A stretch of DNA of 64,000 bases from contig JANWUR010000003.1 of NCBI GenBank assembly GCA_024958655.1, forward strand, positions 62,001 to 126,000, read 5' to 3'. Position numbers and translations under genes: made by a program. The stretch's first letter is position 1; every line of letters starts with the position of its first letter. Positions 4,463-17,531 of the stretch are shown piece after piece. The stretch comes from Cyanobium sp. FGCU6. GTDB taxonomy: Bacteria > Cyanobacteriota > Cyanobacteriia > PCC-6307 > Cyanobiaceae. The notes beneath the pieces were generated by a model that saw only the letters and a program-made list of their open reading frames with translations, was not told where the DNA came from and ran no database searches.

Positions 4463-5446
4463 CTAAGGGAGGCTGAGTCGGCCAAATGGACCGGCGGCTG
4501 GCCCGTTGGCATCGAATCGGGCCACGATCTTGTCGGTAGTGCCGACGCCACCACCCAAGCCAGTGATCCGGGGAGGTGCATGAACAATTTCGAGAATATT
4601 GCCGTTGGTTCGCAACAGCCAGTCTCCGATCCTGACCGTTCCAGCGCCAGGCGGGTTCGGCCGGCCAACTAGAAGAAGGGGCGATGTCGTGGTTCCAACG
4701 CGCAGAGAACCGTCGAAATCCCCATTACCTGTCGTGCGAAACTCCCCGTTAACCTCCAGCCGATCCCACAGCTTCACGATGCGACCGCTGGTCGTCTGCC
4801 TGCCCAGGATCATCAGGGCGTCGTAATTCTGAGCATTCTGGATCGCGGCGAAACCCGGTGTATTGCCAATGCCGGTAGCCAGATGGTCGGTCTTGGTGAA
4901 GTACACGTCCGAGTTGGCGGCTCGAACAGGCCCCCTCATCACCACATTCGTCGAGCCGTCGTCCCTGCCCAGGCTCACCGGCCCACTGGCCGTGATCGCG
5001 CCTGTGAAGGTTGTGGTGCCAGCCACCGTGAGATCGCCTTCGATCCGGGCCCCACCACCGGCCACGTGCAGCTTCGCCTGCGGATCGTTGGTGCCCACGC
5101 CCAGGTTGCCCGTGGCGTCGAGGTAAAGCCGGGTCGCCCCAGCGCCGTCGGCGATCCCGAAACCAGCACGATTGGTGGCCGCATCATTGGGATCCTGGCC
5201 AGGGTTGAGACTGATCAGCCAGTCGGGCTCCGTGGCGCCGCTTGGCGGAGTGCCGTAGAAGCGCAACACCCTCTTCTGGGCATCGTTGCCGGCCACGATG
5301 CTGAGAGGCTCGCCGGAATTGCGGAAGATGCCATCATCACTCTGATTGAGCGGGGCATCAATCAGATCCTTGAAGTCCTGCTCGGTGGGAATGGCATTCC
5401 GGACGAACTTGGCCTTGAGATCCTGGCGGGCTTTGGTGGGGGCCAT
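4463..5446 (-). CDS. Tail-fibre-like / putative receptor-binding protein
   Basis: The product has 327 residues, beta-rich and low in cysteine. Residues 1-40 (KFVRNAIPTEQDFKDLIDAPLNQ) resemble the short virion-attachment segment of fibre proteins. A GNLGVGTNDPQAKLHVAGG motif near residue 115 is typical of trimeric phage and bacterial fibre shafts, followed by Gly/Thr-rich strands (GDLTVAGTTTFTGAITASG). The C-terminal part shows no recognised enzyme motif. It sits between the J-like and Afp12-like baseplate genes, where a baseplate-anchored fibre would make sense (Afp13-like role). Binding target unknown. Start ATG at 5446 lies 45 bases after the previous stop. Confidence 0.7.
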   Translation of the reverse strand: MAPTKARQDLKAKFVRNAIPTEQDFKDLIDAPLNQSDDGIFRNSGEPLSIVAGNDAQKRVLRFYGTPPSGATEPDWLISLNPGQDPNDAATNRAGFGIADGAGATRLYLDATGNLGVGTNDPQAKLHVAGGGARIEGDLTVAGTTTFTGAITASGPVSLGRDDGSTNVVMRGPVRAANSDVYFTKTDHLATGIGNTPGFAAIQNAQNYDALMILGRQTTSGRIVKLWDRLEVNGEFRTTGNGDFDGSLRVGTTTSPLLLVGRPNPPGAGTVRIGDWLLRTNGNILEIVHAPPRITGLGGGVGTTDKIVARFDANGPAAGPFGRLSLP

Positions 5447-10028: not shown

Positions 10029-10457
10029 TCAGTGAGCCCTCAGGATCCGGTTGGTGGTGAGGAAGCGCCCCTGCCCGGAGTATTCGGTCATCGGATCGGG
10101 AATCGGCGCCCCTGCGGCGGTGGGTTGCTGGGCCGGGGATTCCACCCGGAAGCGGGCCGTGAAGCTTCCGCCCACCAGCAGCAGCTGCTGCCCCCCGGTC
10201 TGGATGGTGCGCGTGCGCTGATCGCTGCCGAGGGAGGCCACCTCGAGGCTGCCCACGCCAGGGATGGGGTAGGCGCCGCTGCTGTAGAGACAGCCCTTCA
10301 CGCTGGCCGAGGCCTCATCGCCCGCCACGCACAGGCGCTTGCCGTTCAGGCTGGCAGGCCCGCTGCCCCGCAGCGTGCCGGGCCGAACCACCACCATCGC
10401 GGCGCCGAACGCCGGCTCGAAGAGGGCCTGATCCGCATCGATGAGCACGTAGTCCAT
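10029..10457 (-). CDS. PAAR-like spike-tip protein (Afp10-like)
   Basis: The product has 142 residues. It opens MDYVLIDADQALFEPAFGAA and continues with short Gly/Ser/Val-rich beta repeats (GTLRGSG, a KRLCVAGDEAS segment, GVGSLEVASL), then a proline-rich PIPDPMTEYSGQGRFLTTN tail. This matches the small PAAR-like proteins coded between gp25 and the J-like protein in CIS operons. They are thought to cap the VgrG spike with a sharp tip and can carry effectors. The ATG shares one base with the stop of the gp25 gene, and the stop is almost touching the GTG of the next gene. Confidence 0.75.
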   Translation of the reverse strand: MDYVLIDADQALFEPAFGAAMVVVRPGTLRGSGPASLNGKRLCVAGDEASASVKGCLYSSGAYPIPGVGSLEVASLGSDQRTRTIQTGGQQLLLVGGSFTARFRVESPAQQPTAAGAPIPDPMTEYSGQGRFLTTNRILRAH

Positions 10458-10879
10458 CAGAGTGCCCCCGTAGACGCTTCATTGCGGTAGAAGGGCAGCA
10501 CCAGGTTGTAGCGGGAGTTGGTGGCGGCCACCCTGTAATCGAGGCGGATCAGCAGCACGCCGGCATTCTGCGGATCCGGGCTCACATCCACATCCAGCAG
10601 ACGCACCCGTGGCTCATGGAGCAGAACAGCATCGTGAATGGCACTGGTGAGCTGACTCACGAGGCCATGATCGATCTCGCTGAACAGCCAGTCATCGAGG
10701 CTGCAGCCATAGAGCTCCTGCATGGCCCGCTCACCTGGACGGGTGGCGAACAGGATCATCAGCGACTGATGGATGTCGTCCTCGTTCGACACCATGGCCA
10801 CCGAGCCACCCGCGTCGCCGAAGCGGGGGGGAAACGCCCAGCCGGTTCCCAGAAAATCGAGGGTGTTGAGGTCGGTCAT
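10457..10879 (-). CDS. gp25-like baseplate wedge protein (Afp9-like)
   Basis: The product has 140 residues. It has the gp25/lysozyme-like core: SLMILFATRPGERAMQELYG near residues 39-58, and a HEPRV segment near 88 that corresponds to the conserved EPR motif of gp25 and TssE. The fold is non-enzymatic and links the wedge to the sheath. It opens FLGTGWAFPPRF, usual for CIS members. The ATG overlaps the preceding small gene (ATGA). Length and order (spike, gp25, PAAR, J) match known extracellular CIS clusters. Confidence 0.88.
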   Translation of the reverse strand: MTDLNTLDFLGTGWAFPPRFGDAGGSVAMVSNEDDIHQSLMILFATRPGERAMQELYGCSLDDWLFSEIDHGLVSQLTSAIHDAVLLHEPRVRLLDVDVSPDPQNAGVLLIRLDYRVAATNSRYNLVLPFYRNEASTGAL

Positions 10880-11143: not shown

Positions 11144-12802
11144 CTACTGGATGTCGACCGTTGCCCCCTTGATGACCACCTTGCCTTTGGCCTCCACCTT
11201 GAAATCCTTGGCACTGGAGAGGGTGATGCCCTCCTTGTCGAGGAGGAGGGAATTGCCGTGCTGGTCTTCGATGGTGATCGTGCCGGCAGACTGGTCGATG
11301 GCGATCCGGTTCGCGTAGGTGCCGCTGGCCTTGCCGTCGCCGGTGGTTTCAAGGGTGAGGGAGGGCGTTGCATCGTCGAAGACGATGCGGGTGCCGGCCC
11401 GGCTGACGATGGCCCGCAGATCGTTGTCCTCATCGGGACTGTCGACAGGGGCGGGTGGTGGATGGCGGGCGCTGTGCAGGGCGCCGAGCACCACCGGCTG
11501 GCGCGGGTCGTCGCCGAGGAAACCGAGCACCACCTCGTCGCCCACCTCCGGGCGGAACACGAAGCCCCGCCCGTCACCCGCATCGGGACTGGCGAGCCGG
11601 GCCCAGAGCGCGCCCTGATCACCGCCGAGCGCCGGCAGGCGCACCTGCACCCGGAACTGGTTCTGGTCGTCGGTGTCCAGCGATCCCACCGTGGCGATCT
11701 GCAATCCGCGCAGGGGGGGAAGCAGGCCAGCGGCCGGCAGGTCGGCCAGGTCGGGACGGCTGGCGAAGAGTTCCGTGGACAGACCAACCCGCAGTTCGCT
11801 CTGCCAGCCGTTCTCGTTGACGGTGTGGGTGACGGCGGAGACCAGGGCCTTGCCGTTGAAGCGATCGCCGACGCCGAGGATCTCCACGGTGTCGAGCGGT
11901 TCGAGGCTGGCATCGCCGGCCACCAGGGCCCGCCCGCGCAGCAGGGCGAAGCGGCTGCGCAGCAGCCGGGCGCTGGCCCAGTCGGCCAGTTCACCGGGCT
12001 CGAACACCGCCGGATGGAGAAGAATCTCCTCGCTGCCGCCCAGGGCGTTGGCCACAGCCTCGACATCGAGGTTGCCGACAGGAACCTCCGGCGGCGTGGC
12101 GGCCTCCGGTGACGTGGCCTGTCCATTCGTGAGATCCCAGCCGATCCCGTTGATGGCGGCCCACGGTTGGCTGCCGTCGAGTTCCAGCGAGATCTCGGCC
12201 ACATCGTCGACTCCATGGTCGAGCCGGCGGCGCGGGCCACTCAGGGCGAGGCGGCGGACACTGACCGCGCCACGATGCACGCTCACCCCCAGACCCAGAA
12301 CTTCGGCCCGGGAGAGCATGAAGTCCCAGTCGGTGGCCTGGTACTGAACCAGCTCATGGTGACGGATTGTGGTGGAATCGATCACACCCGTCTTGAGGCC
12401 AGCATCAGCGATCAGCGACGCCATCACGTCACTGTCCGTGACGTCGCGGAACACCGCGCTGTGACGGGAGCGGGTGAGCACGAAGGCCGCATCCTTCAGT
12501 TCAACCCGGAGGTTGGATCCCTCCGCGTTGCGCTCCACCGAATGGCGCACCACCAGCCCCTCGAAGACCGTGACGTCCGTGGGGTCTTCTTCATAGCGAA
12601 GAGCGATGGCGATCGATGCCCCCGGAAGGAAGAACGCCAGATTGCTGACGCTGAAGCGACGCTCGGCCACACTGCCATCGAGCAGCACCAGGGTGGCTTC
12701 CGGGATCCGGTTCAGCTCCCGGTGGATCTCTAGCGACAGCAGCTCGATCGTGGGATCGAGCGTGGAGCCCTGGCTGGTGATCGTGGCGACGGGGACACCC
12801 AT
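11144..12802 (-). CDS. VgrG/gp5-gp27-like spike protein (Afp8-like)
   Basis: The product has 552 residues from ATG 12802; a TTG three codons upstream (12811) overlaps the LysM gene and is an alternative. Residues 1-330 form the gp27-like hub (VFEGLVVRHSVERN, a TDWDFMLSRAEVLGLGVSV segment). Residues around 345-430 form the gp5 OB-fold: FRVQVRLPALGGDQGALWAR then RPEVGDEVVLGFLGDDPRQP. The C-terminus is a beta-helix with short repeats (KDFKVEAKGKVVIKGATVDI). It forms the central puncturing spike below the tube. No effector domain is fused at the C-terminus. Confidence 0.92.
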   Translation of the reverse strand: MGVPVATITSQGSTLDPTIELLSLEIHRELNRIPEATLVLLDGSVAERRFSVSNLAFFLPGASIAIALRYEEDPTDVTVFEGLVVRHSVERNAEGSNLRVELKDAAFVLTRSRHSAVFRDVTDSDVMASLIADAGLKTGVIDSTTIRHHELVQYQATDWDFMLSRAEVLGLGVSVHRGAVSVRRLALSGPRRRLDHGVDDVAEISLELDGSQPWAAINGIGWDLTNGQATSPEAATPPEVPVGNLDVEAVANALGGSEEILLHPAVFEPGELADWASARLLRSRFALLRGRALVAGDASLEPLDTVEILGVGDRFNGKALVSAVTHTVNENGWQSELRVGLSTELFASRPDLADLPAAGLLPPLRGLQIATVGSLDTDDQNQFRVQVRLPALGGDQGALWARLASPDAGDGRGFVFRPEVGDEVVLGFLGDDPRQPVVLGALHSARHPPPAPVDSPDEDNDLRAIVSRAGTRIVFDDATPSLTLETTGDGKASGTYANRIAIDQSAGTITIEDQHGNSLLLDKEGITLSSAKDFKVEAKGKVVIKGATVDIQ

Positions 12803-12807
12803 GCCCT

Positions 12808-13539
12808 TCAACCTCCCGCCTTGGCGTAAGGCGGGAACAGGAGTTCCTGCCCGGGGGTGAGCACACGGAAGTCGTCGAGCCCGTTCACCGCCGCCACCCG
12901 CAGGTAGTGCTCAGGCGTTCCATAAACATCCCGGCAGAGTCCGGTCAGGGTGTCTCCTGCCTTGACCAGTCGCCTGTGGGTGAGGTCAGGGGAATGAAGA
13001 TTGTCCTTGGCTGCCTTCTTCTTGGGATCGAGGTCTTCGATGAACTGTGCTGCCAGCTCGGCATGCAGAGGCGAGCCATCGGTATCGAAAGTGGAGTAGT
13101 TGACGTCGACAGATTTCAACCGGCAGTCAAAGTTCGGCCCCAAGATGCCCTTCTGCCAGATCAGCCGCAGATAGGAAGGCTCATGCGAATCGCTGTTGAT
13201 CTGATGACAGAGCCTGTAGAAGAGCTCAACACTCTGCTCCACAGTAAGTGCTTTGGGCCCAAGGAGTTGAGCCATCCCATAGGCACCGAAGTCAATCGAA
13301 TCGAAGATCAGGGTCAGCTGGACAACACGGGATCGGCCCTGTGCAAACCTTGCTTGCGCTGAACTGCTTGGACTCGCCTGGGACGTCTGGAAGGCATTCT
13401 CACATTTGAACAAAACGGTTTCGGGGTTGTAGCGCACCGAAAGACTGCTGGGATCCTCCACGGGCCTGGAGCGCGCGGAATCGAGAAAGGCGGCGATCGT
13501 GAAGTCGGACGGTTTGCCGATCAGGTCGAGAAGTCCCAT
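12808..13539 (-). CDS. LysM-domain CIS hub protein (Afp7-like)
   Basis: The product has 243 residues. The N-terminal 170 residues carry the CIS-type hub region (LSVRYNPETVLFKCENAF near 33-50, LTLIFDSIDFGAYG near 75-88). A LysM domain follows at about 190-237: VKAGDTLTGLCRDVYG, then VNGLDDFRVLTPGQELLFPP. Proteins of this type join the tube to the spike, and in phages the equivalent LysM gene lies just before the spike gene, as here. The ATG is 13539, with 17 bases to the previous stop. Confidence 0.88.
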   Translation of the reverse strand: MGLLDLIGKPSDFTIAAFLDSARSRPVEDPSSLSVRYNPETVLFKCENAFQTSQASPSSSAQARFAQGRSRVVQLTLIFDSIDFGAYGMAQLLGPKALTVEQSVELFYRLCHQINSDSHEPSYLRLIWQKGILGPNFDCRLKSVDVNYSTFDTDGSPLHAELAAQFIEDLDPKKKAAKDNLHSPDLTHRRLVKAGDTLTGLCRDVYGTPEHYLRVAAVNGLDDFRVLTPGQELLFPPYAKAGG

Positions 13540-13556
13540 GGTGGTGGCCTCGATCG

Positions 13557-13772
13557 CTAACGATCCCGGCTGCGCTCAAGGCGGCGCAGCACGGTTCGGA
13601 CGCAGGTGGCCACGAGGCCATCGAGGATGGCTTCCCTGGACACCGAATCAAGGGCAGCCTGCGGGGCAGAGGGGGAGCGTCGAGAGGCAGCATCGGTCTG
13701 TGAGGTGGATCGGGGAGCCTGAGCCGGTTGCACCACGGCCCGAATCACCAGTTGGCGGATTTCGATGGTCAT
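13557..13772 (-). CDS. DUF5908 family protein
   Basis: The product has 71 residues beginning MTIEIRQLVIRAVV, the hallmark of the DUF5908 family, found almost only inside CIS operons between the last tube gene and the LysM gene. The middle is Ser/Ala/Pro-rich and probably disordered. The end is a basic helix (VRTVLRRLERSRDR). The ATG overlaps the previous stop by one base. The function of the family is not established; an assembly or adaptor role is inferred. Confidence 0.75.
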   Translation of the reverse strand: MTIEIRQLVIRAVVQPAQAPRSTSQTDAASRRSPSAPQAALDSVSREAILDGLVATCVRTVLRRLERSRDR

Positions 13773-14254
13773 CAGAGGCGCACCGTCAGCATGCGGGAGT
13801 AACAGAGCTCGAGGGTGTCGATGAGGATCCGGTCGTCCTGGGCATTGAGATCTGCCGTGGCCCAGCGCACGGGGAATGCCTCCTTGAACATCCAGGCGGA
13901 GATGGGAACAGCTGCTTCACTGAACAGGGTGACCAGAACATCGGAGCGAAAGAACTTGAATTCATTCATCACGTCATTGAGCTGGATATTCAAGGGTGAG
14001 CCCACAATGAATCCACGCTCCAGGACAAGATTCTCGTAGGTCAGACGCTTGGGCAGTTGCTTCGTTATCAGGTTCTTCCCCCCCTGTTTCATGGGTTCCG
14101 TCTCCACACGTGTGGACAGACCAGACACCCGCTGAAAACGGATATCCAGAGGGTTGGGGATCACCCCTGCCACAAAGAAGAACACGGCAAAGCGATGGGC
14201 CAGGGGCATCCCCAGAGGCGAGTCAACGGAAAGCGTGGGCAGGGGAAACGCCAT
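13772..14254 (-). CDS. CIS tail-tube protein 3 (Afp5-like)
   Basis: The product has 160 residues and a gp19-type tube fold: HRFAVFFFVAGVIPNPLDIR, then FQRVSGLSTRVE, LTYENLVLERGF and a WMFKEAFPVRWATADLNAQ segment. The pattern RVSGLS followed by LVLERG is typical of inner-tube subunits. It is the most divergent of the three tube genes here and the last, which fits an Afp5-like subunit that begins the tube on the hub. The base composition is clearly lower in GC than the baseplate genes (13981-14040 has 31 G/C of 60). Confidence 0.85.
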   Translation of the reverse strand: MAFPLPTLSVDSPLGMPLAHRFAVFFFVAGVIPNPLDIRFQRVSGLSTRVETEPMKQGGKNLITKQLPKRLTYENLVLERGFIVGSPLNIQLNDVMNEFKFFRSDVLVTLFSEAAVPISAWMFKEAFPVRWATADLNAQDDRILIDTLELCYSRMLTVRL

Positions 14255-14259
14255 GACCT

Positions 14260-14706
14260 TCAGGACAAGGGAACGATGGAAACACCTGATGCCTTGATCT
14301 CCATCACATCGATCGCCGCCTCATTGGTTCTGGCGTCGAACGTGGGTGCCGTGATCTTGATCGGGATGGTGCGGGCCATGCGCCAGGCCAGCACGGGAAT
14401 CCCCTTGTTGTTGCACAACTGCACCTCCATGGGTTGGGGATCGGTCTCCTCCAGCCAGGCATGCAGGCTTCCCTCGCCCTCCACCACGCCCTGTTCCAGG
14501 GTGACCGATACATACTGATCAAGGTGATAGCAGGCCAGCAATTCCCCATCGAGGAAGGAGAGTCCGTCGCGATAGGTGATCGCCTTGTGCTCCCGCTGCA
14601 GCCCGGAGACCTTGGCGAAGCGCAGGGACTGCCCCGCCCTGGTGACGCGGAAGTTGTAGGCAGGCAGCGGATAACTTCGAGCCTGCTGCTCGATACTCAC
14701 GCCCAT
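14260..14706 (-). CDS. CIS tail-tube protein 2
   Basis: The product has 148 residues: YPLPAYNFRVTRAGQSLRF, AKVSGLQREHKAITYRDG, VTLEQGVVEGEGSLHAWLEE, then VLAWRMARTIPIKITAPTFD and an IDVMEIKASG ending. The alignment of these motifs with the neighbouring 156-aa gene is obvious (PLPxYNxRV, APTFDA+xN), so the two arose by duplication. It belongs to the gp19/Hcp-like tube family that stacks inside the sheath. Start ATG 14706 lies two bases after the previous stop. Confidence 0.9.
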   Translation of the reverse strand: MGVSIEQQARSYPLPAYNFRVTRAGQSLRFAKVSGLQREHKAITYRDGLSFLDGELLACYHLDQYVSVTLEQGVVEGEGSLHAWLEETDPQPMEVQLCNNKGIPVLAWRMARTIPIKITAPTFDARTNEAAIDVMEIKASGVSIVPLS

Positions 14707-14708
14707 GA

Positions 14709-15179
14709 TCAGCCCTCGTCCATGCTGATGAGATCCGCCTTCAGCTCCAGGGTCTCGATGGCCACATCATTCGACTTGGCATCGAAGGTGGGAGCCGTGA
14801 GCTTGGTGGGGAAGGCATTCACCACCTTCCAGGAGATCACAGGAGCTCCTTTCTCATCGCAAAGCCGAACAAAGATATTGCGCTTCTCGATCAGGTTGGT
14901 CTCGATGGTCTGGATCCAGCGGTACAGAGCCTTGAGGCTCTTGGTGCGCACCAGTCCCTTCTTCAAGGTGATCGTGGGTGGGGTGCTCTGGGCCGGCATG
15001 TGCATCGTACGGGGGCCGGCCGCACCTGCCGTAGGGCTCTCCTTGTAAGTGGTGACTTCGTAGCCGATGCTGAGGCCGGACACTTCGGAGAAGGCGACAG
15101 TCTCGCCTTCGATTTCCACACGGTAGTTATAGACGGGAAGAGGGTAGTCGGTACGGATGGTCTGAGGAGAGACAGCCAT
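14709..15179 (-). CDS. CIS tail-tube protein 1 (Afp1-like)
   Basis: The product has 156 residues: YPLPVYNYRVEIEGETVAFS, EVSGLSIGYEVTTYKES, TITLKKGLVRTKSLKALYRW, VISWKVVNAFPTKLTAPTFD, then an IETLELKADL end. This is the classic major tube subunit of CIS (gp19 family). Tube genes follow the sheath gene directly, as in Afp, PVC and cyanobacterial CIS clusters. The ATG at 15179 is 45 bases from the sheath stop. Confidence 0.92.
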   Translation of the reverse strand: MAVSPQTIRTDYPLPVYNYRVEIEGETVAFSEVSGLSIGYEVTTYKESPTAGAAGPRTMHMPAQSTPPTITLKKGLVRTKSLKALYRWIQTIETNLIEKRNIFVRLCDEKGAPVISWKVVNAFPTKLTAPTFDAKSNDVAIETLELKADLISMDEG

Positions 15180-16697: not shown

Positions 16698-17531
16698 TCA
16701 GAGCCGGATGACGCGATAGAGGGCGTCCAGGGGGGTGCCGTTCTGCACGGGAAGATTCATCACCTGATCGGAGGGTGGCGGCGGCAGATCGGAGATGTAG
16801 CGCTGACCATCCAGCAGCAGCCGCAGCCCCACCTGGGCCTTGCCATCCAACGGAGGGGAACGCTTGGAACTGAGGCGGTACACCCTGCCCTCCGGACTGC
16901 CCGCCACCAGAACCTGGGCAACGCGATCCTGGGCCAGTTCCGTGGAGGCGGAGGCCAGAGAGGTGACCTCGAACTCCAGGGCTCTGGCCGGAACGGAATC
17001 GGTGATGCTGGGGATCCTGTCCGTGCGTTGGGTGACGATGTAGTACACCCAGCGAACCTGGCGCGGTTGAAGCGAAAGCACAAAGCGCGGCGGGGCCTGG
17101 ATCCAGGCCGAGGTGATCAAGCTGATCTCCACCCAGGCCACACGATCCGCTGAAGGTGAAGACGGGGGACCGGGGGCGCGCTCTGCCAGTTGCAGATCGA
17201 CGGCGGCAGGAACATTCCTGAAGGTGGGATGGCGCAGAGAGAGCAGGGGAGCCAGGTCGAAGGCGGACCCCAGCAGGGGATCCGTTCGAATCAGGTCGAA
17301 CCGGAGGGTGAGATCGGCCAACGGAAGAAATAGCGTTCCGTCGTCCGCAAGCCCCGTGAGCACCACCAGGCCATCGGGTTGCGGGCGCACCAACAGACGA
17401 TGCCGCTGCAGCGCGCGCACGCCGGCGGCATCGGTGGCGGTGGAGTGCAGAGCGAGCGTGTCGCCGCCGATCGGAGTGGGCGTGCTGCCCCCCCGACGCA
17501 GAGCGATCTGAAACAGAGGGGTGAACTTCAT
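16698..17531 (-). CDS. Unrecognised CIS-operon protein (277 aa)
   Basis: The product has 277 residues, beta-rich, with no signal peptide or membrane helix. The first half has short strands (HRLLVRPQPDGLVVLTGLAD, TLFLPLADLTLRFDLIRTDP). The second half contains WIQAPPRFVLSLQPRQVRWV then YYIVTQRTD, and ends DQVMNLPVQNGTPLDALYRV. I do not recognise a named family. It lies between the DUF4255 gene (ATGA overlap) and the sheath gene, so it is almost certainly co-translated with structural parts. A cap, collar or membrane-anchoring role is possible, but nothing in the sequence proves it. Confidence 0.8.
   Translation of the reverse strand: MKFTPLFQIALRRGGSTPTPIGGDTLALHSTATDAAGVRALQRHRLLVRPQPDGLVVLTGLADDGTLFLPLADLTLRFDLIRTDPLLGSAFDLAPLLSLRHPTFRNVPAAVDLQLAERAPGPPSSPSADRVAWVEISLITSAWIQAPPRFVLSLQPRQVRWVYYIVTQRTDRIPSITDSVPARALEFEVTSLASASTELAQDRVAQVLVAGSPEGRVYRLSSKRSPPLDGKAQVGLRLLLDGQRYISDLPPPPSDQVMNLPVQNGTPLDALYRVIRL

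Follow-up and report, generated by a model that had tools for sequence, protein, structure and literature searches.

The window, by which we mean the whole stretch of 64,000 nucleotides analysed here, is part of contig 47 in the 4.07 Mb, 69-contig genome of Cyanobium sp. FGCU6 and carries the gene cluster of a contractile injection system (CIS), the features of which are collected below. Between its cap and sheath genes lies a 277-aa open reading frame that starts with ATG and runs from 17531 to 16698 on the minus strand; over the same interval, frame 1 of the plus strand is not open and contains three stops. The four bases ATGA contain both its start codon and the stop codon of the neighbouring Pvc16_N (DUF4255) gene, and the sheath gene starts 24 bases past the end of the reading frame, just as the first-pass annotation had it when it described a 4-base overlap with the DUF4255 gene and a place ahead of the sheath.

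Features of the injection system cluster in the window (E-values are given after the matching family or structure)
Feature	Position	Strand	Evidence
Cap adaptor, Cis16B/Alg16B family (almost certain), 277 aa	16698..17531	-	Position, profiles, predicted fold
Cap protein Cis16A (Pvc16_N/DUF4255), 199 aa	17528..18127	-	Pfam PF14065 4.5e-24; best PDB match All3327, 7b5i, 1.4e-11
Contractile sheath Cis2, 482 aa	15225..16673	-	Pfam PF17482 1.3e-12; best PDB match All3325, 1.5e-118
Tube protein (gp19-like)	14709..15179	-	PF06841 7.9e-35
Tube protein (gp19-like)	14260..14706	-	PF06841 1.1e-16
Tube protein (gp19-like)	13772..14254	-	PF06841 3.4e-25
CIS_tube plus LysM-like protein	12808..13539	-	PF19266 1.4e-31; LysM match under its cut-off
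Spike/hub protein (Phage_base_V)	11144..12811	-	PF04717 1.7e-22; exact start codon uncertain
gp25-like baseplate protein	10457..10879	-	PF04965 1.5e-20
CIS spike tip protein	10029..10457	-	PF19267 2.4e-43
Baseplate protein Cis12-like, 1254 aa	671..4435	-	Best PDB match All3315 1.8e-39; Alg12 6.4e-36

The 277-aa reading frame is a genuine gene, beyond what chance would produce, and it is under selection. It is intact at the same position in two relatives, L078 (75% identity) and L033 (44%, both from alignment A5), and the comparison with L078 gives dN 0.16 and dS 0.61, with 54, 33 and 97 differences at codon positions 1, 2 and 3 of the 277 codons, while that with L033 gives dN 0.56 and dS 1.05 (NG86 in both cases). 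L033 is one and the same cluster as L079, and both L078 and L079 come from cyanobacterial MAGs. Elsewhere in the window, a 327-aa protein adjoining the baseplate genes (4463-5446) shows a weak match to bd2133 (8ond, 1.8e-4, about 45 residues) and no membrane segment by hydropathy. A 97-aa reading frame between the tube and CIS_tube genes (13400-13693), with no tblastn match at E 1e-4 in six related loci, may be no gene, and Rfam yields nothing in the window at gathering scores.

Searches by family name leave the 277-aa protein without a label. No Pfam family matches it (best 0.022, under the cut-off), nothing is found in NCBIfam or PHROGs, and no model from any of the three collections convincingly matches the seven members of its family that were scanned. 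Likewise, a phmmer search of the PDB with the protein alone (P0001, the query) gives no match at E 10 or below. A first scan of genome contigs with P0001 confirmed no relative, nor did three scans of viral contigs; a second scan of the genome contigs, with alignment A2, found L078 and L079. A2 also gave weak matches in the window's own genus (L073-L077, E 0.003 to 0.5). It was because no Pfam, NCBIfam or PHROG family matches that the first-pass annotation could not name the gene, and its statement that the protein resembles no CIS component is accurate for family-name searches and for the single-sequence PDB search. It gives way, however, under profile and structure comparison, as set out below.

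Position already points to a particular component. The gene stands beside a short single-domain Pvc16_N cap gene and ahead of the sheath gene, and the best PDB matches of the two flanking proteins are All3327 and All3325 of Anabaena; All3326, whose number falls between them, belongs with All3327 to one solved cap complex (7b5i). Can homology to this protein be traced in sequence as well? It can through intermediates, whereas the direct single-sequence search finds none. By tblastn, P0001 matches the gene at the same place in another cluster, L118 (2.9e-6), and at 1e-3 misses the same-place genes of L053, L054, L055, L065 and L067. A profile of the window type (A6: window, L078 and L079) compared with that of L118, L116 and L117 (A7) gives a probability of 97.9% and E 3.3e-13 over 229 columns; comparisons of two-member profiles are weak (15.7% and 4.8%). 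Among the open reading frames of ten sources, A6 retrieves its own three members and the same-place genes of L118 (1.5e-13) and L065 (4.3e-10), and nothing further at E up to 1; in a repeat with shuffled sequences the two genes scored 1.3e-13 and 3.6e-10, and the best of 2,000 shuffles 0.28. Conversely, the window gene is found in the same reading frames by A7 (1.2e-8) and by A8 (6.3e-6) and is not found by the Anabaena-type profile A9. Because A6 reaches neither the Anabaena-type genes of L055 and L083 nor L115, and A9 misses the window gene, family membership rests on the intermediates.

The clearest test leaves one whole type out. A profile built from 15 same-place genes of other cyanobacterial clusters, none of them of the window type, recovers all three window-type genes (window 8.1e-20, L078 1.4e-17, L033 1.2e-12), the best of 600 shuffles being 3.3. 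When the other types are left out in turn, the remaining genes recover every one of the 15 at 1.3e-12 or better, and across all five tests no shuffle scored better than 0.043. Against 177,635 PDB sequences, the top three matches of A7 are All3326 (2.1e-4), the AlgoCIS cap adaptor (4.1e-4) and SalCis16b (0.063). Profile A8 matches the AlgoCIS cap adaptor at 0.0014, ranked under S-layer protein matches at 0.0007, and for A8 as for A3 All3326 is not among the PDB matches listed. The far stronger matches of A1 to All3326 (3.9e-83) and SalCis16b (3.4e-6) come from a profile that holds three Anabaena-type genes; the former was therefore not counted for the window protein, and the types were tested apart.

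Fold comparison arrives at the same two proteins. The model predicted from three sequences is of middling confidence (mean pLDDT 65.9, pTM 0.56) and beta-rich, as the first reading had suggested. The two top matches of Foldseek among 350,542 PDB chains are All3326 (6.5e-7) and Alg16B (5.6e-6), each with probability 1.00 and the third match at 0.30, although their TM-scores are low (0.41 and 0.43, with rmsd of 11.9 and 8.6, respectively). VIA-align also places these solved cap adaptors at the top, All3326 with Z 8.6 (rmsd 5.7 over 220 residues) and Alg16B with Z 8.2 (rmsd 5.0 over 213 residues), values that barely exceed the range the tool calls middling; the next match has Z 5.1. SalCis16b is not among the matches listed by either program (best 50). 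Since the same two proteins are named by position, by profile and by fold, coincidence is very unlikely. The gene, its position, its family and its predicted fold are supported directly in the window and its relatives.

The gene almost certainly encodes the cap adaptor of the injection system, of the Cis16B/Alg16B family; as such it is an ordinary, already described part of the machine and a divergent new member of a known family. Calling it unrecognised was mistaken, because it belongs to a cap adaptor family with solved structures; both profiles and fold match Cis16B/Alg16B, i.e. a CIS component that has already been described, and a match of that kind is what the first-pass annotation had said would refute its reading. 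Its closest counterpart by fold is Cis16B (All3326) of the thylakoid-anchored CIS of Anabaena (PDB 7b5i), which likewise sits between cap and sheath, gives the best Foldseek match and the top VIA Z, and is joined to it by intermediate profiles. All3326, however, has 399 residues against 277, and the Anabaena-type genes have an additional stretch in the middle, absent from the window protein. Alg16B of AlgoCIS (PDB 7adz), the second best fold match, is closer in length (284 residues) and shares just 12-13% identity over the aligned residues. It comes from the marine bacterium Algoriphagus, so that co-occurrence with cyanobacterial CIS alone, which the first-pass annotation had proposed to check, does not hold. 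SalCis16b (PDB 9r9n), the third PDB match of A7, is weakly similar and a weaker relative than Alg16B; the word SalCIS did not occur among the literature matches listed. The Afp16/Pvc16 caps occupy the same end of the particle and consist of one protein, whereas the reports on AlgoCIS and Anabaena describe, in the passages concerned, two (PMC8894136, PMC8894135). An apparent unknown is thus removed from a cyanobacterial injection system, and, as no Pfam, NCBIfam or PHROGs model convincingly fits the seven members scanned, it is quite possible that others carry only a hypothetical-protein label.

What would such an adaptor do? For the ring, its contacts, locking and release the answer is drawn from Algoriphagus and Anabaena. 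According to the relevant passages on the Algoriphagus particle, a ring of six Alg16B subunits connects the last sheath layer with Alg16A, whose C-terminus is contacted by the N-terminus of Alg16B (PMC8894135). Of 223 particles formed without Alg16B, 49.8% were normal in overall shape and yet had no cap, adaptor or last sheath layer, the remainder being tube-baseplate or jammed forms (PMC8894135). A second account states, in the part pertinent here, that Alg16B is released on firing, and its authors propose that it stabilises and locks the pre-firing state (PMC13314943). The Anabaena cap is described in its report as a six-fold complex of two proteins, Cis16A terminating the tube and Cis16B the sheath (PMC8894136). 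By analogy, six copies of the window adaptor, presumably translated directly after the cap protein, would probably assemble into a ring at the particle's far end; the N-terminal part of the adaptor would contact the tail at the C-terminus of the cap protein (Cis16A), and its body would rest on the last sheath layer. Before firing, the ring would close off the sheath and hold it to the capped tube; once the sheath has contracted, there should be no space left for the adaptor, which should then detach.

The first-pass annotation had considered either a collar or an attachment of the particle to a membrane. The cap-end position stands, and family membership would give the protein a collar-like role as a ring between cap and sheath; anchoring finds no support. 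That the protein might fix the particle inside the cell is a reading encouraged by its place at the cap end, by its want of a family name and by the ability of cyanobacterial systems to be anchored, as noted in the Anabaena report (PMC8894136). It is nevertheless scarcely credible, given that profile and fold match a cap adaptor and that the same report, where it treats anchoring, traces it to tail fibre and baseplate extensions (PMC8894136). By hydropathy, moreover, there is no membrane-spanning segment, the highest 19-residue Kyte-Doolittle mean being 1.39 in P0001, 1.12 in L078 and 0.72 in L033, and for that reason the anchor was rejected. It is also very improbable, if a shade less so, that a diverged cap adaptor has taken on an additional role, such as binding some other factor of the cell at the particle's distal end. 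Strong divergence within a single genus (44% between window and L033) and the missing middle stretch would fit such a change, but the length is near that of Alg16B and no extra domain is seen.

How regularly does the adaptor accompany related systems? A family gene lies between cap and sheath in 18 of 22 clusters with a related sheath, comprising three window-type, three L118-like, five L065-like and six Anabaena-type clusters plus L115. The 22 are those in which cap and sheath genes could both be read, caps being found by tblastn or Pfam. Left out were L083 (cap off the contig, adaptor gene present) and the cut-off L098 and L120; smaller copies of refetched loci (L001, L002, L079-L082, L084-L097, L099-L104, L107 and L108); and clusters whose sheath or cap is of another type (L003-L032, L034-L052, L056-L064, L066, L068-L072, L105 and L106). 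The four without an adaptor gene in this place, L109-L112, all belong to the window's genus and form a single clade (100/98) in the sheath tree of the 22, sister to the three window-type clusters under midpoint rooting only; a single change therefore suffices. The gene was probably lost in them, the most economical explanation given that it is carried by every other type and by Algoriphagus. In the four whole genomes no match to profile A5 scored better than E 0.087, though two of these genomes are just 83-84% complete and in any of the four a very diverged copy could escape; two positive genomes, both contributing members to the model, gave about 1e-47.

The four clusters retain cap, sheath, three tubes, CIS_tube, hub, gp25 and a large 1511-aa-like protein, and three of them (L109, L111 and L112) a Cis12-like gene, which is absent from the fetched stretch of L110. 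Their caps have longer C-terminal tails than those of ten aligned adaptor-bearing relatives. It is conceivable, although rather doubtful, that this sister lineage dropped the adaptor altogether while keeping the other parts, and that the longer cap tail partly replaces it. If so, nature would have provided a parallel to the Algoriphagus deletion with its faulty particles. Comparing close relatives that have the adaptor with those that lack it would allow its necessity to be tested.

The spike ends of these clusters also vary. The CIS_spike_tip (PF19267) gene of the window has tblastn relatives in L033, L116 and L118 and no match in L109-L112. A PAAR-like gene is present in the four adaptor-less clusters, in all six of the Anabaena type and in four of the five L065-like ones; the PAAR match is confirmed by Pfam for L110 (L110:8929-9357) and L111 (L111:10357-10659), and in L109 the PAAR-like gene lies upstream of the cap gene. 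The related sheath itself is patchy in the window's genus, matching in 6 of 42 genomes at E < 1e-100 and in two more at 5e-38 and 2e-30.
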